Assembly (NCBI GenBank): GCA_018883725.1
Contig: JAHLFN010000058.1
Span: 1 to 40,110, forward strand
Direction of reading: 5' to 3'
Origin: Candidatus Fusobacterium pullicola
GTDB lineage: Bacteria; Fusobacteriota; Fusobacteriia; Fusobacteriales; Fusobacteriaceae
Length of the DNA: 40,110 nucleotides
A model generated the notes under the pieces. The model saw only the letters and a list, made by a program, of their open reading frames with translations, ran no database searches and was not told the origin of the DNA. Position 1 is the stretch's first letter; each line of letters begins with the position of its first letter. Of this stretch, positions 19,032-39,758 are shown one piece after another. The position numbers and the translations under genes were made by a program.

Positions 19032-20660
19032 TTAAATTTTTTTAATTATAAATTCATTATTTTCTCTCTTTATTTTTAACTTGAATAAGTTATCAGAAGT
19101 AGTTGGAAAATCCTCTCTATAGTGTGCTCCTCTACTCTCTGTACGAGCTAATATACTCAAAGCTAAAAGTTTTATACTCTCTTCCATGAGATAGATCTCT
19201 AAAGAACCATTTTTAATATTTTTACCAATATTATAATTTTCTCTAATAAATTTCAAATCACTCAATAGGGTATTCACCTTGGCTTCACTTCTAACTATTC
19301 CTAAGTTTTTAGAGGTACTCTCTTTTAATTTTTTAATAGTGTTTTTCCTATCTAAAGTATCATCTTTATCATCTTTACAGATAGATTTTATCCAATCATT
19401 AAAAGAGTTTTCAATCTCTGTTATATTAGTTTTCATCTTTTTACTATTTTTTATATATTTTACAGAGTGAGATACAGCTTTATCTGCAAAGACAAGAGAA
19501 CCTCCCACAGAGTTTCCTCCCAGTCTATTAGCTCCCTCAATTATAGAAGCTACCTCTCCAACAGCATAAAGTCCTTCTACTTCAGTTCTAGCATCAATAT
19601 TAATTTTTATACCACCATTACAACTATGAGCAAAATGATTTATTAGAATTTCATCTTTTAATAGATCGATCCCCATCTCATTTTTGAGCCAGTTAAGATA
19701 TACAGTATAGAATTCCTCCTGATCCTTGTAAAGTTCTTGTGTAAATTTAAGAGCAGCACCATCAGTAGGAAACTTTAAATCAATTAAATGACTTTTAAAA
19801 TCAAAGCTAAATGGAGCATATCCACTTCTTTCTATCCATAAATCCTTCGTTGAATCACTCTCTATTCCAGTTAAGATAAGCTCTCCATTTTTATTATACA
19901 TTCCAGAACAGTATTTAAGGGTATGTTCACCAAATAGAACATTGTATTTAGGTTTTAAAAAAGCTGGAATGAATTGTATAAATTCCATATTTTGTACACT
20001 TGCTCCAGCATCAAGAGCAGCAATATGCCCGATACCATTAATTCCCTCAGGATATAGGCTATCTTTATAGTTGCTAGCTATTCCTCCAGTTGCCAAAATA
20101 ATAACTCTAGATTTAATAAAGATAAAGTTTTGCTTATTTTGAAAAATTGCTCCAACAACCTTGTTATCTATACTTACAATTTTTACTAAGCTAGAATTTT
20201 CTAGAATATTTAGATTATTATTTCTTTTAATTTTTTGTCTCCACTTTGCTTGAGCTTTCTTCCAATTATTGATAAGATAGATATCTCTAGAATATTTAGC
20301 AAAACAAGCTGGTCTAGAATCCTTACGAAGCCAAGGTTCAAATCCTATTTTATTGAGCAGAGGGATATTTTTCTTTATATTTGAGATATAGGTTTTTATA
20401 AGCTCTGGATTTTCCATTCCTTTTCCCATGTTTTCTATATCTTCATAGTATTTTTCATAATCACTCTCATCTTTTGTAACTTGAATTCCCAATGTACCTT
20501 TTAAGGGGAAGTAGCTAGCTCCCCCACAAAGTTTTTTATTAGTTACAAGATATACTTTTTTTCGATTTTTTAAAGCTCTTTCTGTAGCAACTAGTCCAGC
20601 TATTCCTGTACCTATAACTAAAATTTCACATTCCAACACTTTTTTTATTTTTACCTTCAT
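19032..20660 (-). CDS. FAD-dependent oxidoreductase, fumarate reductase/aspartate oxidase type
   Basis: A 542-residue flavoprotein. The N terminus has the dinucleotide fold EILVIGTGIAGLVATERAL, then a second FAD contact in VIILATGGIA. The FAD/active-site end is NGGIKINIDARTEVEGLYAVGEVA followed by GANRLGGNSVGGSLVFADKA, as in FrdA/SdhA/NadB. The C-terminal helical domain ends with ESRGAHYREDFP, the usual FrdA/NadB tail motif. No signal peptide, FMN-binding or heme domain is present and no iron-sulfur partner adjoins, so it is not an obvious respiratory fumarate reductase. It starts 25 bases after the ABC genes on the same strand and probably belongs to the MarR-led operon. The substrate is unknown; a soluble fumarate reductase or an L-aspartate-oxidase-like enzyme are candidates. 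Confidence 0.8.
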   Translation of the reverse strand: MKVKIKKVLECEILVIGTGIAGLVATERALKNRKKVYLVTNKKLCGGASYFPLKGTLGIQVTKDESDYEKYYEDIENMGKGMENPELIKTYISNIKKNIPLLNKIGFEPWLRKDSRPACFAKYSRDIYLINNWKKAQAKWRQKIKRNNNLNILENSSLVKIVSIDNKVVGAIFQNKQNFIFIKSRVIILATGGIASNYKDSLYPEGINGIGHIAALDAGASVQNMEFIQFIPAFLKPKYNVLFGEHTLKYCSGMYNKNGELILTGIESDSTKDLWIERSGYAPFSFDFKSHLIDLKFPTDGAALKFTQELYKDQEEFYTVYLNWLKNEMGIDLLKDEILINHFAHSCNGGIKINIDARTEVEGLYAVGEVASIIEGANRLGGNSVGGSLVFADKAVSHSVKYIKNSKKMKTNITEIENSFNDWIKSICKDDKDDTLDRKNTIKKLKESTSKNLGIVRSEAKVNTLLSDLKFIRENYNIGKNIKNGSLEIYLMEESIKLLALSILARTESRGAHYREDFPTTSDNLFKLKIKRENNEFIIKKI

Positions 20661-25008: not shown

Positions 25009-26229
25009 GTGGAATTATTAAAATGGGTACACAATACAAAAAGTAGAGATGTAAACTACCAAAAAGAAAAATTAGTAGGATTTGAAGAGAAAGAGATGAA
25101 GGAAGTTTATGAGTTTCATAAGAGTCTTCCTGGATATAAAGCAACTCCATTAGTAGAATTAGATGAATTAGCAAAATACTATGGTGTACAAAAATTATGG
25201 TTAAAAGATGAATCAAAGAGATTTGGATTAAATGCTTTCAAAGTACTTGGAGGTTCATATGCAATAGGAAAATACCTAAGCCAAAAATTAGGAAAAGATA
25301 TGAGCGAATTACCATTTAATGTACTTGTATCTGATGAAGTAAAAAAACAACTTGGAGATGTAACATTCGTTACTGCAACAGATGGTAACCACGGTAGAGG
25401 AGTAGCTTGGGTAGCTAATAAATTAAGACAAAAATCAGTAGTATATATGCCAAAAGGATCAGCTCAAATGAGATTTGATGCAATAGCTAGAGAGGGAGCA
25501 GATGTATCAATAACTGATTTAAACTATGATGATGCTGTAAGACTTGCTAACAAAGGTGCACAAGAGCATGGATGGATAATGGTTCAAGATACTGCATGGG
25601 ATGGATATGAAGAGATTCCTTTATGGATAATGCAAGGTTATTCAACAATTATCAATGAAATAGTTGAACAATTAGAAGCAGCTAAAGAAGAAAAACCAAC
25701 TCACGTATTCTTACAAGCTGGAGTAGGATCTTTTGCTGGAGCAGTTCAAGGATACTTATCTCACCTATATGGAGATGACAGACCAATAACAATAATTTGT
25801 GAACCACACGGAGCTAACTGTATATATAAATCAATGGAAGCTAATGATGGAAAACCTCATAATGTAACTGGAGATTTAACAACAATAATGGCTGGACTTG
25901 CTTGTGGAGAACCAAATACAATCAGCTGGAAAATCTTAAGAGATAACTCAGATTTCTCTGTATCATGTGATGACTCAATAGCAGCAAGAGGAATGAGAGT
26001 GTTATCTTCACCTCTAGGAAATGACCAAAGAGTAATTTCTGGAGAATCAGGAGCAGTAGGACTTGGATTATTTACAGTATTATCTGAGAAAAAAGAAGAG
26101 TATGCAGAATTAATGAAAGCATTAAAAATAGATGAAAACTCAAGAATCCTATGTATCAGTACAGAGGGAGATACAGACGTAGAAGGATTCAAAAACGTAG
26201 TATGGAATGGAGCTCATCCAAATAAATAA
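25009..26229 (+). CDS. ygeX: Diaminopropionate ammonia-lyase
   Basis: A 406-residue PLP enzyme of fold type II that converts 2,3-diaminopropionate to pyruvate and two ammonia via aminoacrylate. ESKRFGLNAFKVLGGSYA holds the PLP lysine (Lys78), followed by TDGNHGRGVAW (phosphate/cofactor pocket), QAGVGSFAGAVQGYL (glycine-rich loop), EPHGANCIYKS and STEGDTD. Length and motifs match E. coli YgeX (DpaL). GTG at 25009 is the start, with AAGGAGG 8 bases upstream. It heads a sigma-54-driven block with ygeY. In the anaerobic purine route it is the step that releases pyruvate and ammonia. Confidence 0.95.
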   Translation: MELLKWVHNTKSRDVNYQKEKLVGFEEKEMKEVYEFHKSLPGYKATPLVELDELAKYYGVQKLWLKDESKRFGLNAFKVLGGSYAIGKYLSQKLGKDMSELPFNVLVSDEVKKQLGDVTFVTATDGNHGRGVAWVANKLRQKSVVYMPKGSAQMRFDAIAREGADVSITDLNYDDAVRLANKGAQEHGWIMVQDTAWDGYEEIPLWIMQGYSTIINEIVEQLEAAKEEKPTHVFLQAGVGSFAGAVQGYLSHLYGDDRPITIICEPHGANCIYKSMEANDGKPHNVTGDLTTIMAGLACGEPNTISWKILRDNSDFSVSCDDSIAARGMRVLSSPLGNDQRVISGESGAVGLGLFTVLSEKKEEYAELMKALKIDENSRILCISTEGDTDVEGFKNVVWNGAHPNK

Positions 26230-26305
26230 TAGAAAATAAATTTAAATGGTTTAATTATTATTTTTAAGTATTGTAATATTATTATGATAAATTATGGAGG
26301 AAAAA

Positions 26306-27490
26306 ATGTTAACTGAAGCAAGAAAACAACAACTAATAGAAACACTTAGCAACTTAATTCAAAGAAGAAGTTACTCTGGAGAAGAAAAAGAAGTAGTAGA
26401 GTACATGGAAAAAATAATGAAAGAAGTTGGATATGATACTGTTCATATTGATAAATATGGAAATATAATAGGATCAATCAAAGGAAAATATGCGGGACCA
26501 AGAATATTAATGGATGGACATATTGATACAGTTCCAGTAAATGCAGAAAAATGGACAGAAAAACCATTTGGTGGAGAAGTTCATGATGGAAAATTATTCG
26601 GAAGAGGAACTACAGATATGAAAGGTTCTGTATGTGCAATGATGTTAGCAGGGGCTTACTTAGCACAAGACCTTAAAAAAGAATTTGCTGGAGAAATATT
26701 CATGGCTGGAGTAGTTCATGAGGAGTGTTTCGAAGGAGTAGCTGCTAGAGAAATAAGTGAATATGTAAATCCAGATATCGTAATAATAGGAGAAGCTTCT
26801 CAATTAAACCTTAAAATAGGACAAAGAGGAAGAGGAGAAATAGTTGTAGAAACTTTTGGAAAACCAGCTCACTCAGCTAACCCTGAAAAAGGAATAAACG
26901 CAGTTTATAAAATGATGAAAATAGTAGGAGAAATCCAAAAATTACCTATGACTCACCACAAAGATTTAGGATATGGAATCCTTGAGTTAACAGATATTAA
27001 ATCATCTCCATACCCAGGAGCATCAGTAGTACCTGATTACTGTAGAGCAACTTATGACAGAAGACTTTTAGTAGGAGAAACTCCAGAATCAGTTTTAGCT
27101 CCATTACAAGAATTAATCGATAGATTAATGAAAGAAGATGAAACATTAAAAGCTAAAGTTTCTTATGCAGTAGGAAAAGAAATGTGTTGGACAGGAAACG
27201 AAATAACAGGAGAAAGATTCTTCCCAGGATGGTTATTTGATGAGAAAGAAGAATATATCCAAAAAGCAGTAGAAGCATTAAGAGGAATTGGACAAGATCC
27301 AACAATAATGCATTATAACTTCTGTACAAATGGATCTCACTATGGAGGAGAAAAAGGAATAAGAACAATAGGATATGGTCCATCAAAAGAAAATATAGCA
27401 CATACAATAGATGAGTACATAGAATTAGATCAATTATTCAAAGTAACAGAAGGATTCTACGCAATCTTAAAAGCTTACCTATCAAAATAA
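26306..27490 (+). CDS. ygeY: YgeY-type M20 metallohydrolase (selenium/purine locus)
   Basis: A 394-residue zinc-dependent amidohydrolase of the M20 family. MDGHIDTVPV has the first metal His and Asp, GRGTTDMKGS the bridging Asp, HEECFEG the catalytic and metal Glu, and GEAS the next ligand. A dimerisation domain (GQRGRGEIVVETFGKPAHSA) is inserted, and the last ligand His is probably in the segment NFCTNGSHYGG. The ATG at 26306 has GGAGG 5 bases before it; the ATG at 26294 precedes the ribosome site itself. It lies 76 bases after ygeX. In purine-degrading clusters YgeY is placed at hydrolysis of ureido intermediates leading to diaminopropionate; the exact substrate is from the literature, not the sequence. 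Confidence 0.93.
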   Translation: MLTEARKQQLIETLSNLIQRRSYSGEEKEVVEYMEKIMKEVGYDTVHIDKYGNIIGSIKGKYAGPRILMDGHIDTVPVNAEKWTEKPFGGEVHDGKLFGRGTTDMKGSVCAMMLAGAYLAQDLKKEFAGEIFMAGVVHEECFEGVAAREISEYVNPDIVIIGEASQLNLKIGQRGRGEIVVETFGKPAHSANPEKGINAVYKMMKIVGEIQKLPMTHHKDLGYGILELTDIKSSPYPGASVVPDYCRATYDRRLLVGETPESVLAPLQELIDRLMKEDETLKAKVSYAVGKEMCWTGNEITGERFFPGWLFDEKEEYIQKAVEALRGIGQDPTIMHYNFCTNGSHYGGEKGIRTIGYGPSKENIAHTIDEYIELDQLFKVTEGFYAILKAYLSK

Positions 27491-27617: not shown

Positions 27618-29207
27618 ATGTCAAAAATTCTAATAAAGAATGGAACAGTTATAGATGGAAGCAGAGGAGCAAGATTCCAAGCTGATGTATTGATAGAAAA
27701 TGAAAGAATAGTTAAGATCGGGAAAATAGATGAGGCAGCAGATAGAGTAATAGATGCAACTGGAAAGATAGTAGCACCTGGATTTATCGATACTCATAGT
27801 CACTCAGATTTAAAAGTTTTAATAGAACCATTTGTTGAACCAAAATTACGTCAAGGAATTACAACAGAAGTATTAGGACAAGATGGAATATCTATGGCTC
27901 CATTACCAAAAGAGTATGTAAGTTCTTGGAGAAAAAACCTAGCTGGATTAGATGGAGACAGTGATGAGTTAGGTTGGGATTGGGAAACTACAGATAATTA
28001 CTTAAAACTAATTGAGGAAAGAGGATGTACTCCAAACGAATCTTATCTAGTACCTCATGGAAATATCAGAATGGAAGCTATGGGATTAGAAGCAAGAGTT
28101 GCTACTGATGAAGAGCTAGAAAAGATGAAAGAGATAACTAGAAGAGAGATGGAGGCTGGGGCAGCAGGGCTTTCAACAGGATTAATATATATCCCATGTG
28201 CATACTCAGATACAAGAGAGATGATAGAGATATGTAAGGTAGCAGCTGAGTATGATAGACCACTTGTAATTCACCAAAGAAGTGAAGCAGATACAATGAT
28301 AGAGTCTATGAATGAAGTAATAACAATAGCAAAAGAGAGTGGAGTAAAGATACACTTCTCTCACTTCAAAATCTGTGGAAAAAATAACTGGCATTTAATA
28401 AAAGATATAGTAGCATTATTAGATAAATGTAAAGAAGAAGGAATAGAAATCTCTTATGACCAATACCCATATGTAGCAGGAAGTACAATGCTAGGAGTAA
28501 TAATTCCACCTTGGGCACATGCAGGAGGAACAGATAAACTAGTAGAAAGATTAGGAAATCCAGCTGATAGAGAGAGAATGAAACATGATATAATCAATGG
28601 AATACCTGGATGGGATAACTTTATAGATTTTGCAGGATTTGATGGAATCTATGTAACATCAGTAAAAACAAAAGCAAATGAAGATTGTATAGGAAAAAAT
28701 CTTATAGAGATAGCAGAGTTAAAGGGAAAAGACAAATTTGATGCAGTATTTGACCTATTAAAAGAGGAAGAAAATGCTGTAGGAATGTATGACTACTATG
28801 GTAAAGATGAGCATGTAGTAACATTCTTAACAAGAGAAGAGAGCAATGTATGTACAGATGGATTACTAGCTGGAAAACCACATCCAAGAGTATATGGTTC
28901 TTTCCCAAGAGTTATAGGAAAATTTGTAAGAGAGATGAAAGCTTTATCGTTAGAGGAAGCAATCTATAAAATGACTCATAAGCCTGCTAAGACATTTAAA
29001 TTAGAAGATAGAGGATTAATTAAAGAGGGATACTTTGCAGATATAGTAATCTTCGATGAAAATACAACAATAGATAAAGGAACATTTGTAGATCCAATTC
29101 AAAATCCAGAAGGAATAAGCCATGTAATGGTAAATGGAGTTCTAGCAATAGATAACTTTGAAGCAACTAAAAAACTTTCTGGAAAAGTATTAAGAATTAA
29201 AAAATAA
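27618..29207 (+). CDS. D-aminoacylase-like amidohydrolase
   Basis: A 529-residue amidohydrolase-superfamily enzyme. DTHSHSD provides metal ligands His60 and His62; His219 (VIHQRSEAD), His249 (FSHFKI) and an Asp in VCTDG follow. HPRVYGSFPRVIGKF near 420-435 and the closing MVNGVLAIDN are typical of N-acyl-D-amino-acid deacylases. The metal-bridging Cys of classical D-aminoacylases (VGNCG) is replaced by Asp89 in LGQDGIS, so the substrate may differ. GAGGAGG lies 7-8 bases before the ATG. It is the third gene after the ygeX sigma-54 promoter and is closed by a terminator. Beside YgeY it may act on a carbamoyl or acyl derivative in the purine pathway, which is inference. Confidence 0.85.
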   Translation: MSKILIKNGTVIDGSRGARFQADVLIENERIVKIGKIDEAADRVIDATGKIVAPGFIDTHSHSDLKVLIEPFVEPKLRQGITTEVLGQDGISMAPLPKEYVSSWRKNLAGLDGDSDELGWDWETTDNYLKLIEERGCTPNESYLVPHGNIRMEAMGLEARVATDEELEKMKEITRREMEAGAAGLSTGLIYIPCAYSDTREMIEICKVAAEYDRPLVIHQRSEADTMIESMNEVITIAKESGVKIHFSHFKICGKNNWHLIKDIVALLDKCKEEGIEISYDQYPYVAGSTMLGVIIPPWAHAGGTDKLVERLGNPADRERMKHDIINGIPGWDNFIDFAGFDGIYVTSVKTKANEDCIGKNLIEIAELKGKDKFDAVFDLLKEEENAVGMYDYYGKDEHVVTFLTREESNVCTDGLLAGKPHPRVYGSFPRVIGKFVREMKALSLEEAIYKMTHKPAKTFKLEDRGLIKEGYFADIVIFDENTTIDKGTFVDPIQNPEGISHVMVNGVLAIDNFEATKKLSGKVLRIKK

Positions 29208-29322: not shown

Positions 29323-31098
29323 ATGTCATTTTTAAAGAAGATACAAAACTATGTAAAAGACTATGCTGAAATAATATCAGATATTTTACAATGTGATGTA
29401 GAGATTGTTGATGAAGATATGGTTAGAATAGCTGGAACTGGACTATATAGCGAAAATATAAATGAACTTTGTAAAGGAACAGTTTATAAACATATATTTG
29501 ATAGTAAAAAAAGTAGAATTTTAATTAATCCTAAAGAGGATGAACTTTGTAAAGAGTGTACTCACAAAAATGATTGTACAGAAACATTAGAAATGGCAGC
29601 TCCGATTTTTTATAAAGATAAAGTAATTGGAGTCATAGGGTTGATATGTTTTACTGAGGAAGATAAAAAGAGATTACTGAAAAATATGGAAACCCACCTA
29701 AAGTTTACAGAGAAAATAGCTGACTTTATTTCTGGAAAAGTTTTTGAAGTAGAAGAAGAGATAGAGAAAAAAGAGATTATGGGAATAATGAAGCAAATTA
29801 TTAATAACTATGATAAGTGTGTATTAGTTATTGATAATGAAGGTAAAATTTTAGATGGTAATGAACAGGCATTAAAGGAATTGAAAATTGAAAGTGGTTT
29901 AAGTTTAGCTTATCAAAAAATTAATATTATTCCTAAGAATGAAGTTTTATTTGGAAAGGATATATTTTCAGCTGAGATAAATAAAGAAAAATATAATTTA
30001 ATAGGAACTTTAATTCCAATAACAGGCTTCTCTAAAAGTGAATATAAGATATTTTTATTTGAAAACTTTAATTATGATAAAAGTAAAGAGAGTATAAAAA
30101 ATAAATATGCCTCAAATAATATATTTTTGGAAGATATAATTAGTAATTCGGAAAAAATGATAAAGTTGAAAGAAAGGATAAAAAAAATATCTAAAACAAA
30201 TTCAACAGTTTTAATAACAGGGGACAGTGGAACAGGAAAAGAATTAATAGCTAGAGCTATCCATAATTGTAGCGAAAGATCTAAACAACCTTTTATTGCT
30301 ATAAATTGTGGAGCTATACCAGAAAATTTATTAGAAAGTGAACTTTTTGGTTATGTTAAAGGAGCTTTTAGTGGAGCAAGTAATGAGGGAAGAATAGGGA
30401 AATTTGAGTTAGCAAATAACGGGGTAATTTTTCTAGATGAAATTGGAGAGATGCCCCTTTTCTTACAGGTGAAGTTACTTAGAGTTTTACAGGATAGAAG
30501 TATTGTAAAGATTGGATCAAATAAATTGATAAATCTTAATATCAGAGTGATAGCTGCTACAAATAAAAATCTTCTAAAATTGGTTAAAGAAGGAAAATTT
30601 AGAGAAGATTTATATTATAGATTAAATGTTATTCCAGTAAAAGTTCCAGCATTAAGAGAAAGAAAGGATGATATTTTATTATTAGGTGAGTACTTAAATA
30701 ATAAATATAGTAAAATTTTAGGAGTGAATAAGATAATCTTAGATGATGAGATAAAAAATATATTTTTAAAACATAATTGGCCAGGAAATGTAAGAGAACT
30801 AGAAAATTGTATAGAGTTTTTATCAAATATGGCTGACGAAAATGGAAATATTGATTCAGATACAAGGGAGTATTTAAAGAAGAATTTAAAGAGTAATAGT
30901 TATTATGAAGAGAAAAATATTATAAAAAGTGAAGAAGATACAGAGGAGATAATAACATTAGAAGAGAGTGAAAAGAGACTAGTAGAAAAGGCTTTAAAAA
31001 TATATGGTTCAGATACAAATGGAAAAAATATTTGTGCTGAAAAATTAGGAATAGGAATAGCAACTTTATATAGAAAGATAGAAAAATATAAATTATAA
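29323..31098 (+). CDS. Sigma-54 enhancer-binding activator with Cys-rich sensor domain
   Basis: A 591-residue NtrC-class activator. Residues about 1-130 are a sensory region with four cysteines at 50, 76, 79 and 85 (LCKECTHKNDC) that could bind an Fe-S cluster or metal. A PAS-like segment follows (about 155-255: CVLVIDNEGKILDGNEQAL). The AAA+ domain has Walker A GDSGTGKE (near 300), GAFSGA (near 347) in place of the usual GAFTGA sigma-54 loop, Walker B FLDEIGEMP (near 370), and NWPGNVRELENCIEF (near 485). A Fis-type helix-turn-helix closes it (ICAEKLGIGIATLYRKIEKY). It lies between two gene blocks that each have a sigma-54 promoter, so it is the probable activator of both. Confidence 0.95.
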   Translation: MSFLKKIQNYVKDYAEIISDILQCDVEIVDEDMVRIAGTGLYSENINELCKGTVYKHIFDSKKSRILINPKEDELCKECTHKNDCTETLEMAAPIFYKDKVIGVIGLICFTEEDKKRLLKNMETHLKFTEKIADFISGKVFEVEEEIEKKEIMGIMKQIINNYDKCVLVIDNEGKILDGNEQALKELKIESGLSLAYQKINIIPKNEVLFGKDIFSAEINKEKYNLIGTLIPITGFSKSEYKIFLFENFNYDKSKESIKNKYASNNIFLEDIISNSEKMIKLKERIKKISKTNSTVLITGDSGTGKELIARAIHNCSERSKQPFIAINCGAIPENLLESELFGYVKGAFSGASNEGRIGKFELANNGVIFLDEIGEMPLFLQVKLLRVLQDRSIVKIGSNKLINLNIRVIAATNKNLLKLVKEGKFREDLYYRLNVIPVKVPALRERKDDILLLGEYLNNKYSKILGVNKIILDDEIKNIFLKHNWPGNVRELENCIEFLSNMADENGNIDSDTREYLKKNLKSNSYYEEKNIIKSEEDTEEIITLEESEKRLVEKALKIYGSDTNGKNICAEKLGIGIATLYRKIEKYKL

Positions 31099-31357: not shown

Positions 31358-32683
31358 TTGATACTAAAAAATGGAAGAGTAATTACTCAAGATAAAGATA
31401 GACCATATATAGAAAATGGTGCAATAGTTATTAAAGGAAACAAAATAGTTGATGTTGATACTACTGAAAAGATTTTAGGAAAATATTCAAATGATGAGGT
31501 AGTAGATGTTGATGGGAAAGTTATAATGCCTGGATTTATAAATACACATCACCATATATATAGTGCTTTTGCAAGAGGAATGGCTTCATCAGGAAAACCA
31601 AATGAAAATTTCTTAGAAATATTAGAAAACTTATGGTGGAAAATAGATAAAAAATTAACGTTAGAGGATTTAAAATATAGTGCATATACTACATATATAG
31701 ATTGTATAAAAAAGGGAGTAACAACAGTTTTTGATCACAATGCTAGTCCTTTTGCAATTACAGGTAGTTTAGAATCTATAGCGGATGCAGCTAAAGATTT
31801 AGGATTAAGAACATGTCTTTGTTATGAGGTATCTGATAGAGATGGTGAAGAGATAGCAAAGGAAGGAATAGCTGAAAATATTAACTTTATAAAAAAATAT
31901 AATACAGATGAACAAAATATGATAAAGGGAATGTTTGGATTACATGCTTCTTTTACACTATCAGACGAAACTTTAGTAGCTTGTGATAGAGAATTAAAAG
32001 GATTAAATGCTGGGTACCATGTACATGTGGCAGAGGGAATAGATGATTTAGAACAATGTTTAGAAAAACATGGAAAAAGAGTAGTTGAAAGATTAAGAGA
32101 TATGAATATCTTAGGGGATAAAACAATAGCTGTTCACTGTATTCATGTAACAGATGATGAATTAAATATTTTAAAAGATACAGATACTATGGTAGTTCAT
32201 AATCCAGAGTCAAACATGGGAAATGCTGTAGGATGTCAGCCATTCCTAGAGTTACACAAAAAAGGAGTAACAATAGGATTGGGAACAGATGGATATACAA
32301 GTGATATGACAGAGTCTATGAAGGTTGCAAATATAATTCATAAACATGTGAAACAAAATCCTTCAGTAGCTTGGGGAGAAGTTCCTGTATCAATGTTTGA
32401 AAATAATAGAAAAATAGCTCAAAAATATTTTAGTGGGGATCTTGGAGTATTAAAATCAGGAGCATTAGCAGACGTTATAGTAGTAGATTATGATCCGCTT
32501 ACTCCGATGAATGAGAATAATATAAATTCACATATTCTATTTGGCTTTACAGGAAAAGATGTAGTTACAACTATTATAGATGGAAAAGTAGTAATGAAAG
32601 ATAGAGAGCTTGTAGGAATTAATGAAAGAGAGATATTCAAAACTTCAAGAGAAGTAGCAAAGAGATTATGGGATAGAATGTAA
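31358..32683 (+). CDS. ssnA: SsnA-type aminohydrolase (amidohydrolase superfamily)
   Basis: A 441-residue metal-dependent hydrolase related to guanine deaminase, chlorohydrolase and TrzN-type enzymes. Metal ligands are His64 and His66 in NTHHHIY, a His in YHVHVAEG, AVHCIH, and Asp in LGTDGYTSD. The flanking small beta-sandwich is formed by the N terminus (ILKNGRVITQD) and C terminus (IIDGKVVMKDREL). TTG at 31358 is taken as the start, with AGGAGG 7 bases before it. SsnA is a fixed member of selenium-dependent purine hydroxylase clusters. A deaminase or ring-opening step on a purine intermediate is likely; I cannot tell which from sequence. Confidence 0.92.
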   Translation: MILKNGRVITQDKDRPYIENGAIVIKGNKIVDVDTTEKILGKYSNDEVVDVDGKVIMPGFINTHHHIYSAFARGMASSGKPNENFLEILENLWWKIDKKLTLEDLKYSAYTTYIDCIKKGVTTVFDHNASPFAITGSLESIADAAKDLGLRTCLCYEVSDRDGEEIAKEGIAENINFIKKYNTDEQNMIKGMFGLHASFTLSDETLVACDRELKGLNAGYHVHVAEGIDDLEQCLEKHGKRVVERLRDMNILGDKTIAVHCIHVTDDELNILKDTDTMVVHNPESNMGNAVGCQPFLELHKKGVTIGLGTDGYTSDMTESMKVANIIHKHVKQNPSVAWGEVPVSMFENNRKIAQKYFSGDLGVLKSGALADVIVVDYDPLTPMNENNINSHILFGFTGKDVVTTIIDGKVVMKDRELVGINEREIFKTSREVAKRLWDRM

Positions 32684-32700
32684 TTATTTAGGAGGATATT

Positions 32701-34041
32701 ATGAGTACAACTATCATGGAAACACCGAAAGTGGATAAGATATTAAAAATTGGTGATTTGATACTACTAGGGATACAACATATAGCAGCGATGTGTGCTG
32801 GAGCTATGGCAGTACCAATAATTTTGGGAAACTCTTTAGGACTACCACAACAGGAGATTAATCAGCTTGTTAGTGCATCATTTATGATGTCAGGTTTGGG
32901 AACTCTTATTCAAACGTTGGGAATTAAAAATTTCATAGGTTCAAGACTACCAATGATTGAAGGAGTTAGTTTTGCAGGAGTAGCAGCACTATCAGCAATA
33001 GGAATAACATATAGTACTACTGATCCAATGACAGGGTTACAAGTTATGTTTGGAGCTACACTTGTTTCTGGATTATTTTGTTTTTTAATGGCACCAATTT
33101 TTGGAAAGTTATTAAAATTTTTCCCACCATTAGTTTCAGGAGTTGTAGTTACTTCAATGGGATTATCACTTATACCAACAGCTATAAAATGGGCTGGAGG
33201 AGGAATTCCAGGTTCACCTAATTTTGGAAGTTTTCAAAATATAGCTTTAGCTTTAATAACATTAGTGATAATATTAGGAATTCAAAAAGTATCTAAAGGA
33301 TTTTTAGGAAATATTGCCATATTAATAGGAATATTAGCTGGGACAGTAATTTCTATAGTAATGGGAATGGCAGATTTTTCAAATGCAAGTAATGTAGCTT
33401 TAGTGAATATAAATGTACCACTAAGATATGGAATAAAATTTGATATAACAGCAATATTATCATTATTTTTAGTACAACTAGTTATTATGACAGATGCTAC
33501 TGGAAATCAGTTAAACCTTTCAAATATTTGTGGAGTAGATGAGAAAGATTCGAAAAGACTAGTAGCAGGGCTTAGAGGTCATGGGTTATCTTCAATGTTA
33601 GCAGGTATTTTTAATACATTTCCACACTCTCTATTTGGTCAAAATGTAGGAATAGCTGCAATAACAGGAGTTGAAAGTCGTTTTGTAGGAACAGCTGCTG
33701 GAGTTATATTATTACTAATAAGCTTTTTCCCAAAACTAACTACTCTATTTGCTTCAATACCATCACCTGTTTTGGGAGGAGCTGGAATAGTTATGTTTGG
33801 TATAGTTGCTGCTAATGGAATTAGAAGATTAGGAGAAGTAAACTATGTAGGAAATAAAAATCTTATGATTGTTGCTGCTAGTATAGGAATGGCTTTAATT
33901 CCAATTGCAGTTCCAGAGATATTTAAACATTTTCCAGCTTGGGCAAAGATACTTTTCCAAAGTGCTGTTACACTTGGATGTTTAACAGTGTTGATACTTA
34001 ACATAATATTTAATGAACATGGTAAAAAGAGTAAAAAATAA
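32701..34041 (+). CDS. Purine (xanthine/uric acid) permease, NCS2 family
   Basis: A 446-residue inner-membrane carrier with about 14 hydrophobic segments. GIQHIAAMCAGAMAVPIILGNSLGL opens the NCS2 fold in order, and GQNVGIAAITGVESRFVGTAAGVILL is the family's substrate-site Q-N motif. The other substrate-site region reads VIMTDATGNQLNLSN, with Asp where XanQ and UacT have Glu. AGGAGG lies 5 bases before the ATG and ssnA ends 17 bases upstream. Its place in the purine operon, like uacT/xanQ in the E. coli locus, points to urate or xanthine uptake. Uracil is a less likely substrate. Confidence 0.9.
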   Translation: MSTTIMETPKVDKILKIGDLILLGIQHIAAMCAGAMAVPIILGNSLGLPQQEINQLVSASFMMSGLGTLIQTLGIKNFIGSRLPMIEGVSFAGVAALSAIGITYSTTDPMTGLQVMFGATLVSGLFCFLMAPIFGKLLKFFPPLVSGVVVTSMGLSLIPTAIKWAGGGIPGSPNFGSFQNIALALITLVIILGIQKVSKGFLGNIAILIGILAGTVISIVMGMADFSNASNVALVNINVPLRYGIKFDITAILSLFLVQLVIMTDATGNQLNLSNICGVDEKDSKRLVAGLRGHGLSSMLAGIFNTFPHSLFGQNVGIAAITGVESRFVGTAAGVILLLISFFPKLTTLFASIPSPVLGGAGIVMFGIVAANGIRRLGEVNYVGNKNLMIVAASIGMALIPIAVPEIFKHFPAWAKILFQSAVTLGCLTVLILNIIFNEHGKKSKK

Positions 34042-34091: not shown

Positions 34092-35783
34092 ATGAGAGAT
34101 ATAATGGTACCTATGTCTTTTGAAAAACTAATAAGACAATGTTTGGAAGAATACCAAAATAAAAAATCGTTATTTGACGTAAAGGCAATAGTAAAGGCTG
34201 ACGAAACAAAATCTATGGATTTTTGTGAAAGAGGATTAGAGAGTCCTTTAGGAGTTGCAGCAGGACCTCATACACAATTAGCTCAAAATATAGTAGCTTG
34301 TTATGCTGGAGGAGCTAGATTTATAGAATTAAAAACAGTTCAACGTATGTTTGGAGAAGAATTAGGAATTCAAAAACCTTGTATTCGTGCTAATGACGAA
34401 GGATATAACGTAGAGTGGTCATCAGAGTTACATGCGTTAGAAGCTATGAATGAATATATCAGAGCATGGTTTGCTACTAAAATAGTTGCTAAAGAGTTTG
34501 GATTAGGAAATCCAGATGCTTTCCAATTTAATATGAGCGTTGGATATGACTTAGCTGGAATAAAAACAGAAGCAGTAGATGGATTCTTAAATGGATTAAA
34601 TGATGCTTCAAATACAAAAGTATTCCAAGATTGTAAAAAATATTTACTAGACAATTTACACCTGTTTAAAAATGTAGATGCAGAGTTTATTAATTCAATA
34701 TCTTCTCATGTTTGTAATACAGTAACACTATCAACTATGCATGGATGTCCAGCAGATGAGATAGAAAAAATAGCAGCTTACTTAATAGAGGAGAAAGGAT
34801 TTAATACATTTATTAAATGTAATCCAACTCTTTTAGGATATGATTATGTAAGAAAAATGATGGATGATATGGGATATGATTATCTATCAATAGATAAACA
34901 CCAATTTGAAATAGATTTAAAATTTGATCAAGCAGTAAAAATGATAAATAACCTAATAGCTCTAGCAAAAACAAAAGGTATAAAATTTGGAGTTAAATTA
35001 TGTAATACTATGCCAGTAGATATAAAACATAAAGAATTACCAGGAAATACAATGTATATGTCAGGAAAAAGCTTATATCCACTAGCAATATCTTTAGCTA
35101 AAATATTAGGAGAAGCTATTGGTGAGGAATTAGAAATCTCTTTCTCTGGAGGAGCGGATAAGAACAACATTGATGAAATATTTGAGGCTGGAATATATCC
35201 AATAACTGTATGTACAACACTATTACAACCAATGGGATATGAAAAATTAGCTAAATTATATGAGCAATTACATGCTATAGAATATCCAGCTACTAGAAAA
35301 TTAAATCTTGCTAAGATAAATGAATTAGTAGAAAAAGTTAGAACTGATAAAAACTACTGTAAATCAGAAGCTCAAAGAAAGAAAACAGATGAGCATGTAA
35401 GCTATGAAGGAGTATCTGAAAAGGATAACTTAAAATGTAAAGTACTATGCCAAACATGTATAAGAGTATGTCCTAACAGAGCAAACACATATATAGAATC
35501 ATCAGAAGGAAAAATAATACTTCATATAGACGATTCTTGTAATGAGTGTGGAAACTGTCAATATCTATGTATTCAACCATGTTTACCATACAGAGATAGA
35601 CTTACTTATTTCTCATCTAAAAAGATGATGGAAGAGAGTGAAAATAAAGGAGTTTCTATCCAAGGAGATAAGTATCTAGTACGTCTTGAAAAAGAGATAG
35701 TAGAGTGCAGTTATGATGAACTTTCTGATTTTATGAAATCAGTAGTAGATTCAATTAAGAAAACACATTCATATTTAATTTAA
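34092..35783 (+). CDS. ygfK: YgfK-type reductase subunit, short form without flavin/NAD(P) module
   Basis: A 563-residue cytoplasmic iron-sulfur protein. Residues 1-390 match the first part of YgfK: the opening MRDIMVPMSFEKLI, AAGPHTQLAQNIV, RFIELKTVQ, TLSTMHGCPADEIE, KCNPTLLGY, MYMSGKSLYPLAI and the FSGGAD loop, a dihydropyrimidine/dihydroorotate dehydrogenase-like barrel. The C terminus has two 4Fe-4S motifs: Cys449, 453, 456, 460 and Cys483, 486, 489, 493 (CNECGNCQYLC). E. coli YgfK is about 1030 residues and has between these a GltD-like FAD/NAD(P)H domain. Here about 50 unremarkable residues join the two parts. No frameshift is visible, so this is a natural domain-reduced form that must get electrons from another protein. 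AGGAGG precedes the start. Confidence 0.9.
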   Translation: MRDIMVPMSFEKLIRQCLEEYQNKKSLFDVKAIVKADETKSMDFCERGLESPLGVAAGPHTQLAQNIVACYAGGARFIELKTVQRMFGEELGIQKPCIRANDEGYNVEWSSELHALEAMNEYIRAWFATKIVAKEFGLGNPDAFQFNMSVGYDLAGIKTEAVDGFLNGLNDASNTKVFQDCKKYLLDNLHLFKNVDAEFINSISSHVCNTVTLSTMHGCPADEIEKIAAYLIEEKGFNTFIKCNPTLLGYDYVRKMMDDMGYDYLSIDKHQFEIDLKFDQAVKMINNLIALAKTKGIKFGVKLCNTMPVDIKHKELPGNTMYMSGKSLYPLAISLAKILGEAIGEELEISFSGGADKNNIDEIFEAGIYPITVCTTLLQPMGYEKLAKLYEQLHAIEYPATRKLNLAKINELVEKVRTDKNYCKSEAQRKKTDEHVSYEGVSEKDNLKCKVLCQTCIRVCPNRANTYIESSEGKIILHIDDSCNECGNCQYLCIQPCLPYRDRLTYFSSKKMMEESENKGVSIQGDKYLVRLEKEIVECSYDELSDFMKSVVDSIKKTHSYLI

Positions 35784-35808: not shown

Positions 35809-37176
35809 ATGGAATTACTTTTGAAGAATGCAAATATTGTTACAGATAAAGATACATATATGAGTGATATTTATATAAAAGACGGGATTATAGTTAATAT
35901 AGATAAAGAGCTGAATATACCGAATATAAAAACTGTTGATATAGGGGGAAAATATTTAGTTCCAGGGGGAATAGACGTACATACTCATTTTGATATAGAT
36001 GTAGGAATAGCAAGATCGGCAGATAATTTTTATACAGGAACATTAGCTGCTGCTTGTGGGGGAACAACTACAATAGTGGATCATATGGGGTTTGGTCCAA
36101 AAGGTTGTAACCTACATCATCAATTGAATCTTTATTATGATTTAGCAAAGGATTCTGTAATAGATTATAGCTTTCATGGGGTAATTCAACATATAGATGA
36201 AGATATATTAAAAGAAATTGATGAAATGATAAAAGATGGAATACCTTCATTTAAAGGTTACATGACTTATGGATATAAATTATCTGATATGGAAATGTTA
36301 AAACTTTCAGAGAAGTTAGGAAAATTAGGTGGACTACTTACAGTCCACCCTGAAAATAATGATATGGTAGAGTTTTTAAGAGCAAAACTTGCTAGTGAAG
36401 GAAAATTAGCTCCAATTTATCATGCTAAAAGTAGACCTGATAAGTGTGAAGGAGAAGCGGTTAATAGAATGATAGATTTGACTGCTCAAACTAACTGTCC
36501 ACTTTATATAGTTCATCTTTCATCTAATGAAGCTTTAGAACATATAAAAAGAGCTAAGGATAGAGGACAGGAAGTGTATTCAGAAACTTGTCCACAATAC
36601 TTAGTATTAGATGAAGAGAAATATAGAGAAGAGGATGGAGTAAAATATATATGTAGTCCACCAATAAGAGAAAAAAGTAATCAGGAGAAATTGTGGGAAG
36701 GTATACAGCAAGGATATATTCAAACAATAGCAACTGATCACTGTTCTTTTAACTATAAAATGAAAAAAGAGATGGGAGCAACTGACTTTAGAAAATGTCC
36801 AAATGGCTTACCAGGGGTAGAGACAAGAATGCCTATAATATTTTCTGAAGGGGTATCGAAGGGAAGAATATCAGTTAATAAGTTTGTTGAATTAACAAGT
36901 ACAAACCCAGCTAAACTATTTGGAATGTATCCTAAAAAAGGAAGTATTCAGATAGGAGCAGATGCTGATTTAGTAGTTATAGATCCAAACTTAATAAAAA
37001 AGATAACTGTAGATGATTTACATGAAAATGTAGATTATACATCTTTTGAAGGAATAGAAGTAAAAGGATATCCAGTAATGACAATATCTAGAGGGGAGAT
37101 AATTGTTGAAAACAATAAATTTACTGGAGAAAAGGGAAGAGGAAAATTTATAAAAAGAGAAGCTTTTAAGTTTTAA
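35809..37176 (+). CDS. hydA: Dihydropyrimidinase/hydantoinase-type cyclic amidohydrolase
   Basis: A 455-residue zinc enzyme that opens cyclic amide rings (hydantoins, dihydropyrimidines). GIDVHTHFD gives metal ligands His58 and His60, PSFKGYMTYG the carboxylated lysine (Lys149), LTVHPEN and YIVHLSS the next histidines, and ATDHCSF the catalytic Asp. Length and motif order match HyuA/HydA of the E. coli ygeW-ygeX-ygeY-hyuA locus. It lies 25 bases after ygfK and 14 bases before the dehydrogenase gene. In anaerobic purine breakdown it would open the ring left after YgfK/SsnA action, an assignment from context. Confidence 0.93.
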   Translation: MELLLKNANIVTDKDTYMSDIYIKDGIIVNIDKELNIPNIKTVDIGGKYLVPGGIDVHTHFDIDVGIARSADNFYTGTLAAACGGTTTIVDHMGFGPKGCNLHHQLNLYYDLAKDSVIDYSFHGVIQHIDEDILKEIDEMIKDGIPSFKGYMTYGYKLSDMEMLKLSEKLGKLGGLLTVHPENNDMVEFLRAKLASEGKLAPIYHAKSRPDKCEGEAVNRMIDLTAQTNCPLYIVHLSSNEALEHIKRAKDRGQEVYSETCPQYLVLDEEKYREEDGVKYICSPPIREKSNQEKLWEGIQQGYIQTIATDHCSFNYKMKKEMGATDFRKCPNGLPGVETRMPIIFSEGVSKGRISVNKFVELTSTNPAKLFGMYPKKGSIQIGADADLVVIDPNLIKKITVDDLHENVDYTSFEGIEVKGYPVMTISRGEIIVENNKFTGEKGRGKFIKREAFKF

Positions 37177-37190
37177 AATTGGAGGAAATT

Positions 37191-39758
37191 ATGAGCGAGA
37201 AGTTCAGTTTTGTAGTAAATGGAAAGACAATAGTTACAACAGAAGACGTAAATTTATTGGATTTTTTAAGAGATGATTTAGGACTTATATCTGTTAAAGA
37301 TGGTTGTAAAGAGGGAGCATGTGGAACTTGTACTATTCTTGTAGATGGAAAAGCTATGAAATCTTGTATATTTACAACTAAAAAAGTAGCTGGAAAAGAG
37401 ATTACAACAATAGAGGGATTTACAGCTAGAGAGAAAGAAGTTTTTGCTTATGCATTTACTGAATGTGGAGCTGTACAATGTGGATTCTGTATACCAGGAA
37501 TGGTAGTTGCGGCAAAAGCACTTTTCATGAGAACATTAGACCCTACAAGCGATGAAGTAAAAAAAGCTTTAGTAGGAAATATTTGTAGATGTACTGGATA
37601 TGTAAAAATAGAAGAAGCTATAATGTTAGCAGCTAAATTATTTAGAGAAAATGCACCTGTTCCTCATAGAGAGTGTAAAGGATTAGTAGGAACAAGCGTA
37701 CATAGAGTAGATGCTGAGGCAAAAACTTTAGGAACTGCTAAATATGCAGAAGATTACGTAGTAGAAGGAATGTACTATGGAAGTGCTATAAGAACAAAAT
37801 ATCCAAGAGCTAAAGTTTTATCAATAGATTATTCTGAAGCTTTAAAATTAGATGGAGTACTAGGAGTACTAACAGCTGATGATGTAACTGGAAAGAATAA
37901 TATAGGACACTTAGAGTTCATCTCTGATTGGGACGGATTTATACCAGTTGGTGGAATAACAAGATATATAGGAGATGCAGTAGCATTAGTAGTAGCTAAA
38001 GATAAAAAGACTTTAGCAGAAGCTAAAAAGTTAGTAAAAGTAGAGTTTGAAGAGTTACCTGGACTATTTACTGTTGAAGAAGCAATGGCAGATGGAGCTC
38101 CATTAATTCACAATAAACCAAATAATATTCTAGTAAGAGAACTATTAAAAAGAGGAAACTCTGAAGAAGCTATAAAAAATTCAAAATATGTAGTAACAAA
38201 TACTTACTATACTCCAGCAACTGAGCATGCTTACCTTGAGCCAGAGTGTGCATTAGCTATACCAACAGAAGATGGAGTACAACTATATACATCTAGCCAA
38301 TCAGTATTTGATGAGCAAAGAGAAGTTGCAAGATTTTTAGGAATTGATAAAGAAAAAGTAAGAGTTACTGCAGCTTATGTAGGAGGAGGTTTTGGTGGTA
38401 AAGAGGATATGACTGTTCAACACCATGCTGCTCTTGCTGCTTATGTATTTAAAAAACCAGTACAAGTATTATTAACAAGACAAGAAAGTATAAATATAAG
38501 TACAAAAAGACACGCTATGAAAATAGAGATGACAACAGCTTGTGATGAAAATGGAAAACTTACAGCAATGAAGGCTAAAATCCTTTCAGATACAGGAGCT
38601 TATGCATCACTAGGAGGACCAGTATTACAAAGAGCATGTACACATGCAGCTGGACCATACAACTATCAAAATATAGATATTGAAGGAATAGCAGTATATA
38701 CAAATAATACACCTGGAGGAGCGTTCAGAGGATTTGGAGTTACTCAATCAGCTTTTGCAATAGAAGCAAACATAAACCAATTAGCAGAGATGGTAGGAAT
38801 ATCTCCATGGGAAATTAGATATAGAAATGCAATTAGACCGGGACAAGTACTACCAAACGGACAAATTGCAGATGAGGGAACAGCTTTAGTAGAAACATTA
38901 GAGGCAGTAAAAGATGTTTATGAAAACAATAAGATAGCAGGAATAGCTTGTGCTATGAAAAATGCCGGTATAGGAGTTGGATTACCAGATATAGGAAGAT
39001 GTAGATTAACTATCATCAATGGAGAGGTAAGAGTAAGAACTTCAGCTGCTTGTATAGGTCAAGGTGTGGCTACTGTATGTAAACAAATGGTTTGTGAAAC
39101 TACTGGAGTAGATGCTAAATTAGTAGTAGTAGAAGGACCAGACACACATGTAACTCCTAACTCTGGTACTACAACAGCATCAAGACAAACAGTATTTACA
39201 GGAGAAGCTACAAGACAAGCTGCACTAGCACTTAAGAAAGAGTTAGAAACAAAAACATTAGCAGAATTAGAAGGTTGGGACCACTATGCAGAGTACTCTG
39301 GAATAACAGATAAAATGGGTTCTGATAAGCCAAATCCTGTAAGCCACGTAGCTTATGGATATGCAACTCAAGTAGTTGTATTAGATGAAAGTGGAAAAGT
39401 TACAAAAGTAGCTGCTGCTCATGATGTTGGAAGAGCAATAAATCCAAAGGCATTAGAGGGACAAATTGAAGGTGGAGTTGTAATGGGACTAGGATTTGCA
39501 TTAACAGAAGTTATGCCAATAGTAAAAGGTATACCACAAGTTAAGTTTGGAACTTTAGGACTATTTAGAGCAACAAATGTACCTGAAATAGAAACAACAA
39601 TCGTTGAGAAAAATAAAGTAGAATTAGCATATGGAGCTAAAGGAGTTGGAGAGATAACAGTTATTCCTACAGCACCAGCAGCACAAAATGCTTATTATAA
39701 ATATGATGGAGTATTCAGAACTTCATTACCATTAGAAAAAACAGCGTATAAAAAATAA
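37191..39758 (+). CDS. Selenium-dependent-type xanthine dehydrogenase, fused 2Fe-2S and molybdenum domains
   Basis: An 855-residue purine hydroxylase of the xanthine dehydrogenase family. Residues 1-155 carry two 2Fe-2S clusters: Cys39, 44, 47, 59 (CKEGACGTC) and Cys97, 100, 132, 134 (CGFC, CRC). The molybdopterin part follows from about 170: [26 protein letters not shown] with the substrate Arg, and [10 protein letters not shown] with the catalytic Glu. No FAD domain is present. This fusion is the layout of the selenium-dependent XdhA/XdhD family, in which selenium is a labile ligand of molybdenum, not selenocysteine; no in-frame TGA is seen. ATG 37191 has GGAGG 6 bases ahead, preferred over an in-frame TTG at 37179. 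Selenium dependence is inferred from neighbours. Confidence 0.93.

Follow-up and report, generated by a model that had tools for sequence, protein, structure and literature searches.

A short YgfK in a fusobacterial urate gene cluster lacks the FAD/NAD(P)H module and is probably a ferredoxin-dependent yanthine reductase

The YgfK encoded in the urate gene cluster of Candidatus Fusobacterium pullicola has 563 residues: an N-terminal dehydrogenase-like barrel is joined directly to a C-terminal two-cluster ferredoxin domain, and the central FAD/NAD(P) module of the 1032-aa E. coli K-12 protein is absent. This is the architecture that a sequence-only reading of the DNA had described, with roughly 1030 residues given correctly for E. 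coli YgfK. Reasoning from the analogous enzymes UacX and PydAc, we conclude that the short YgfK is probably an FMN-dependent, ferredoxin-dependent yanthine reductase of the YgfK lineage. The window referred to below is the whole stretch of DNA that was analysed, 40,110 nucleotides, which is the whole of contig JAHLFN010000058.1.

Results

Domain content of the short YgfK

The gene (34092..35783, + strand) is an intact open frame, as the same reading had stated, with an ATG start and no internal stops. A profile search with TIGR03315 (YgfK, 1012 positions) gave 647.6 bits over two stretches, the better of which aligns protein residues 3–430 with profile positions 2–429 and so places the homologous N-terminal barrel; because the score is under the curated full-length cut-off of 835.3 bits, we file the protein as a short-architecture YgfK variant and not as an equivalog. 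The barrel, which is of the dihydroorotate/dihydropyrimidine dehydrogenase kind, occupies residues 1–430 (34092..35381, +) and contains Cys219 in an STMHGC motif. It is followed by a junction (residues 431–448; 35382..35435, +) and by the ferredoxin domain (residues 449–500; 35436..35591, +), which matches PF13237 and whose invariant columns C449-x3-C-x2-C-x3-CP and C483-x2-C-x2-C-x3-C supply a two-[4Fe-4S] set of cysteines (449/453/456/460 and 483/486/489/493).

The junction is the site of the module in long YgfKs. Compared with YgfKs of 1009–1013 aa from the same order, to which the barrel is 48–50% and the C-terminal domain 37–41% identical, the short protein is missing 436 aa between its two domains (residues 439–874 of the long forms); plain MAFFT laid the C-terminal domain against the module, and a spliced alignment was used instead. 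In the long YgfK of locus L133 the corresponding stretch holds Fer4_20 and Pyr_redox_2, which in GltD-like enzymes make up the cluster and FAD/NAD(P) part. A domain search of the 563-aa protein found no match to PF07992 or PF14691, and residues 431–448 hold no remnant of PxxDC, the motif at which the module is entered. A search of plasmids returned only partial, barrel-level matches, annotated as YgfK.

Conservation of the short form

The 563-aa product is also encoded in three further genomes, at 99% identity in another genome of the species, at 94% in a genome of the same genus and at 87% in one from a different genus, and this recurrence excludes an assembly deletion, which the sequence-only reading had named as a way in which it might be wrong. 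The short YgfK is under purifying selection in these four Fusobacteriaceae genomes: dN/dS against the three relatives is 0.07–0.09, and the few amino-acid changes affect the barrel and the C-terminal domain alike. The TIGR03315 score below the cut-off might raise the suspicion of a long YgfK that has decayed or been mis-assembled, but four genomes carry the same form at this low dN/dS, the eight cysteines of the clusters and the STMHGC motif are all retained, and about 60 barrel residues do not vary among 34 YgfKs of the short and long kinds; these observations leave the idea virtually no chance of being correct, and we have ruled it out.

Predicted structure

The short YgfK was modelled by AlphaFold2 from a 34-row alignment (pLDDT 89.9, pTM 0.92), and a fold search with the predicted model gave pig dihydropyrimidine dehydrogenase (DPD) and dihydroorotate dehydrogenases (DHODH) as the best PDB matches, at 11–15% identity and TM-scores of 0.55–0.64 by DHODH length. 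Sequence searches of the PDB returned no match with the single protein and generic ferredoxin matches only with a profile. In the model Cys219 lies between strand 210–213 and helix 221–234, which we take to be where the catalytic cysteine loop of DPD would be. Two other YgfKs, L097 and L074, are without the otherwise constant STxHGC cysteine (they have HGA and HGT), so either the role of this cysteine may be dispensable or the reaction of these two proteins may differ. The short form of a Blautia sp. (L025) does not display the full cysteine motif, which counts against the reading favored here.

The urate gene cluster

The short ygfK gene stands in a cluster that is on the + strand throughout. 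Upstream are genes for the YgeX 2,3-diaminopropionate ammonia-lyase (25009..26229; TIGR03528 above cut-off), the YgeY peptidase-family hydrolase (26294..27490; NF009555 above cut-off), a UacY-like amidohydrolase of the D-aminoacylase family (27618..29207; PF07969, and 770–818 bits to the gene at the same place in UacX clusters), a sigma-54-dependent activator that is likely the cluster regulator (29323..31098; PF00158, PF02954), the aminohydrolase SsnA, which acts with YgfK to open the yanthine ring (31358..32683; NF005540/TIGR03314 above cut-off), and an NCS2 purine permease (32701..34041; TIGR03173 above cut-off). Downstream are a HyuA-type hydantoinase (35809..37176; TIGR02033 above cut-off), an XdhD-type selenium-dependent molybdenum hydroxylase for the conversion of urate to yanthine (37179..39758; TIGR03311, 1403 bits) and a RidA-family protein cut by the contig end (39781..40110; TIGR00004). 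The YgfK neighbourhood of ssnA, xdhD, hyuA, ygeX and ygeY is present, and the cluster encodes the reductive route for urate described by Li et al. 2025, in which XdhD converts urate to yanthine, and YgfK with SsnA converts yanthine to ureidomethyl-hydantoin (PMC12507026). The substrate that we assign to the short YgfK is taken from this pathway as characterised in E. coli and C. difficile; it would thus be yanthine, made from urate by XdhD (PMC12507026), and not urate itself as had been assumed from the sequence.

Three further features of the neighbourhood may be recorded. The activator has a SpoVT_C-type N-terminal domain, and its match to PrdR is confined to the AAA and DNA-binding part. 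A lone 542-aa FAD_binding_2 flavoprotein resembling fumarate reductase or L-aspartate oxidase is encoded at 19032–20660 (− strand), behind two ABC exporter genes. The window was found to contain no YgfM/XdhB-type FAD subunit for XdhD, and among loci with xdhD the presence of such a subunit does not differ clearly between short and long forms (3/16 and 9/57, respectively). The UacY-like hydrolase was found at five of 19 short loci, eight of 10 UacX loci and none of 71 long loci; since the loci are related and many are incomplete, we do not claim that its link with FAD-less reductases is causal.

Relationship to UacX

An FAD-less, presumably ferredoxin-linked yanthine reductase has already been published, in that C. 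difficile has UacX in place of YgfK; methyl viologen was used in its assay and ferredoxin was proposed as the donor (PMC12507026). UacX of Clostridioides difficile resembles the short YgfK in having an FAD-less barrel and a two-cluster ferredoxin domain and in occupying the same cluster slot beside ssnA, and by this likeness the two would share the presumed reaction and donor. By hhalign, UacX and YgfK are distantly homologous (98.2%, E 6e-14), and in both the barrel precedes the ferredoxin domain. Genomes of the M. mangenotii family have UacX (about 374 aa, PF01180), a short YgfK (L129, L130) or a long YgfK (L133) in this one slot, and two of the three were never found together in any of 19 short, 10 UacX and 71 long loci. 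Shared slot, shared architecture and remote homology could mean that the short YgfK is UacX under another name, but this is very improbable: UacX belongs to the PydA/DHODH family, matching PF01180 at 145–156 bits and not TIGR03315; the short YgfK matches TIGR03315 at 648–748 bits and not PF01180 (E 0.01); and the proteins differ in length (374 and 563 aa), with a best BLASTP piece of just 28.9 bits.

Candidate electron donors

E. coli YgfK (PMC12507026) has the barrel, the C-terminal ferredoxin domain and the ssnA/xdhD neighbours in common with the short YgfK, to which it is 42% identical over residues 1–418; it has in addition the Fer4_20-FAD-NAD(P) module, with NAD(P)H as donor, and this module the short protein lacks. 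PydAc of Clostridium chromiireducens is likewise an FMN barrel without FAD/NAD(P)H domains, and it works with reduced ferredoxin or methyl viologen and not with NAD(P)H (PMC7332683). It differs in acting on uracil, in having two ferredoxin domains and in belonging to the PydA family, but it is a ferredoxin-dependent dearomatising reductase, which is what we propose that the short YgfK is. The sequence-only reading had argued that the donor must be another protein, possibly reduced ferredoxin or an unlinked flavoprotein; by analogy with PydAc and UacX, the most plausible donor is a ferredoxin-like one. Both PFOR and RnfC were found, and the cells would therefore be expected to produce reduced ferredoxin; the urate cluster itself contains no ferredoxin gene.

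NAD(P)H might still be the donor if an unlinked GltD-like flavoprotein acted in trans, in the manner of PreT with PreA; a fused NfnAB-type protein could also play this part. The FMN-ferredoxin chain of PreT-PreA has a barrel and a two-cluster ferredoxin domain as in the short YgfK, and its FAD/NAD(P)H module is on another chain (PMC7332683); the two-chain enzyme has a linked partner gene, whereas none was found in any short-form locus. The source genome (99.1% complete) does encode one GltD-like gene, the GltD half of an unlinked NfnAB-type fusion beside thiC, and five other short-form genomes have one to four such genes each. Against a role in trans, no GltD-like gene is within reach of the short YgfK at any short-form locus, which also removes the separate adjacent module gene that the earlier reading had set as a possible refutation; in addition, the GltD-like matches are only 31–36% identical to the YgfK module, the one examined being of the NfnAB type, and no GltD-like gene was present in two short-form MAGs (G101 and G102), for which no completeness is given. 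We consider this route rather unlikely. Slightly less likely again is electron transfer by direct contact with a specific partner, such as a bifurcating [FeFe] hydrogenase, a formate dehydrogenase or XdhD itself. In genome G034 a divergent NuoE/NuoF/[FeFe]-hydrogenase operon (L015:16712-20000) adjoins ssnA of the short-YgfK cluster, and urate breakdown is driven by formate in other bacteria (PMC12507026), but no such operon adjoins the window's cluster and the window has no formate dehydrogenase gene.

Distribution of short and long forms

A scan of 85,000 genomes, from which 80 loci were kept, yielded 14 short and 66 long forms; because similarity to the short query set the order of the list, the short share in it is not a frequency. 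The open frames of these loci fall into two groups, of about 540–640 and 930–1120 aa, with none between about 640 and 930 aa, and short forms were found in Veillonella, Metaclostridioides mangenotii, Clostridium magnum, a Blautia, a Butyricicoccus and various uncultured Bacillota. A better guide to frequency is an evenly drawn sample of the (clostridial) phylum of M. mangenotii, in which 49 of 398 genomes have YgfK and six of the 49 are short (568–581 aa). In the Veillonella family YgfK was found in 18 of 28 genomes, and all 18 are short (564–575 aa). Thus the survey of lengths that the earlier reading had suggested finds the short form to be common, and in one family the only form found, and not an oddity. 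One Lachnospiraceae genome (G103) has two separate clusters (L033 and L158), both of which contain ssnA and a short YgfK of their own (frames of 579 and 627 aa).

Two genomes encode 860-aa YgfKs in intact reading frames (L155:1074-3653 and L156:1218-3797); these keep the FAD-binding motif, but of the NAD(P)H-binding stretch about 150 aa are missing, which suggests that NAD(P)H is dispensable. We found no published description of a short YgfK family in a search that most subscription papers lay outside, and the NCBI YgfK cut-off leaves the short form unnamed.

Evolution of the short form

An AU test rejected the grouping of all short forms in a single clade (p 0.022), a result to be read with caution because of long branches. 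Both L055 and L075 fall among the long forms in the unrooted and in the UacX-rooted tree, L025 does so only in the unrooted tree and L097 only in the rooted one. PxxDC is present in 66 of 69 long forms and in four of 21 short forms (L025, L075, L097 and L160), which fits later excision of the module in those four; it is absent from the window's clade. In the UacX-rooted tree the other short forms branch first and the long forms are nested inside them, an order that is a hint only because the outgroup branch is very long (branches of length 5). The short form may therefore be the older YgfK architecture and the E. coli-type module a later insertion, and the description of the protein as "domain-reduced" may have the direction wrong. 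More tentatively, we can envisage a history in which YgfK began as a ferredoxin-dependent enzyme, acquired the NAD(P)H module once, later, and then had it pared several times, giving the 860-aa forms and the PxxDC-scarred excisions; ferredoxin-driven yanthine reduction would then occur both in short YgfK and in the remotely related UacX lineage, and might be the older mode of the pathway.

Discussion

In the mechanism that we favor, the neighbouring XdhD would first reduce urate to yanthine (2,8-dioxopurine). Reduced ferredoxin, from PFOR and similar enzymes, would charge the C-terminal two-cluster domain of the short YgfK, in place of NAD(P)H acting through an FAD module, and this domain would feed electrons to the protein's own barrel, with its putative FMN, where yanthine would be dearomatised. 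SsnA, HyuA, UacY, YgeY and YgeX would then complete the route to pyruvate and ammonia.

The electron donor sets the energy cost of urate breakdown and determines which bacteria can carry it out, and YgfKs of the long, 860-aa and short kinds, together with UacX, form a natural series in which the question of the donor is directly testable. How gut bacteria break down urate without oxygen is relevant to gout. Since the NCBI YgfK model does not pick up the short form, surveys may under-call urate degraders, Veillonella and relatives of Fusobacterium among them.
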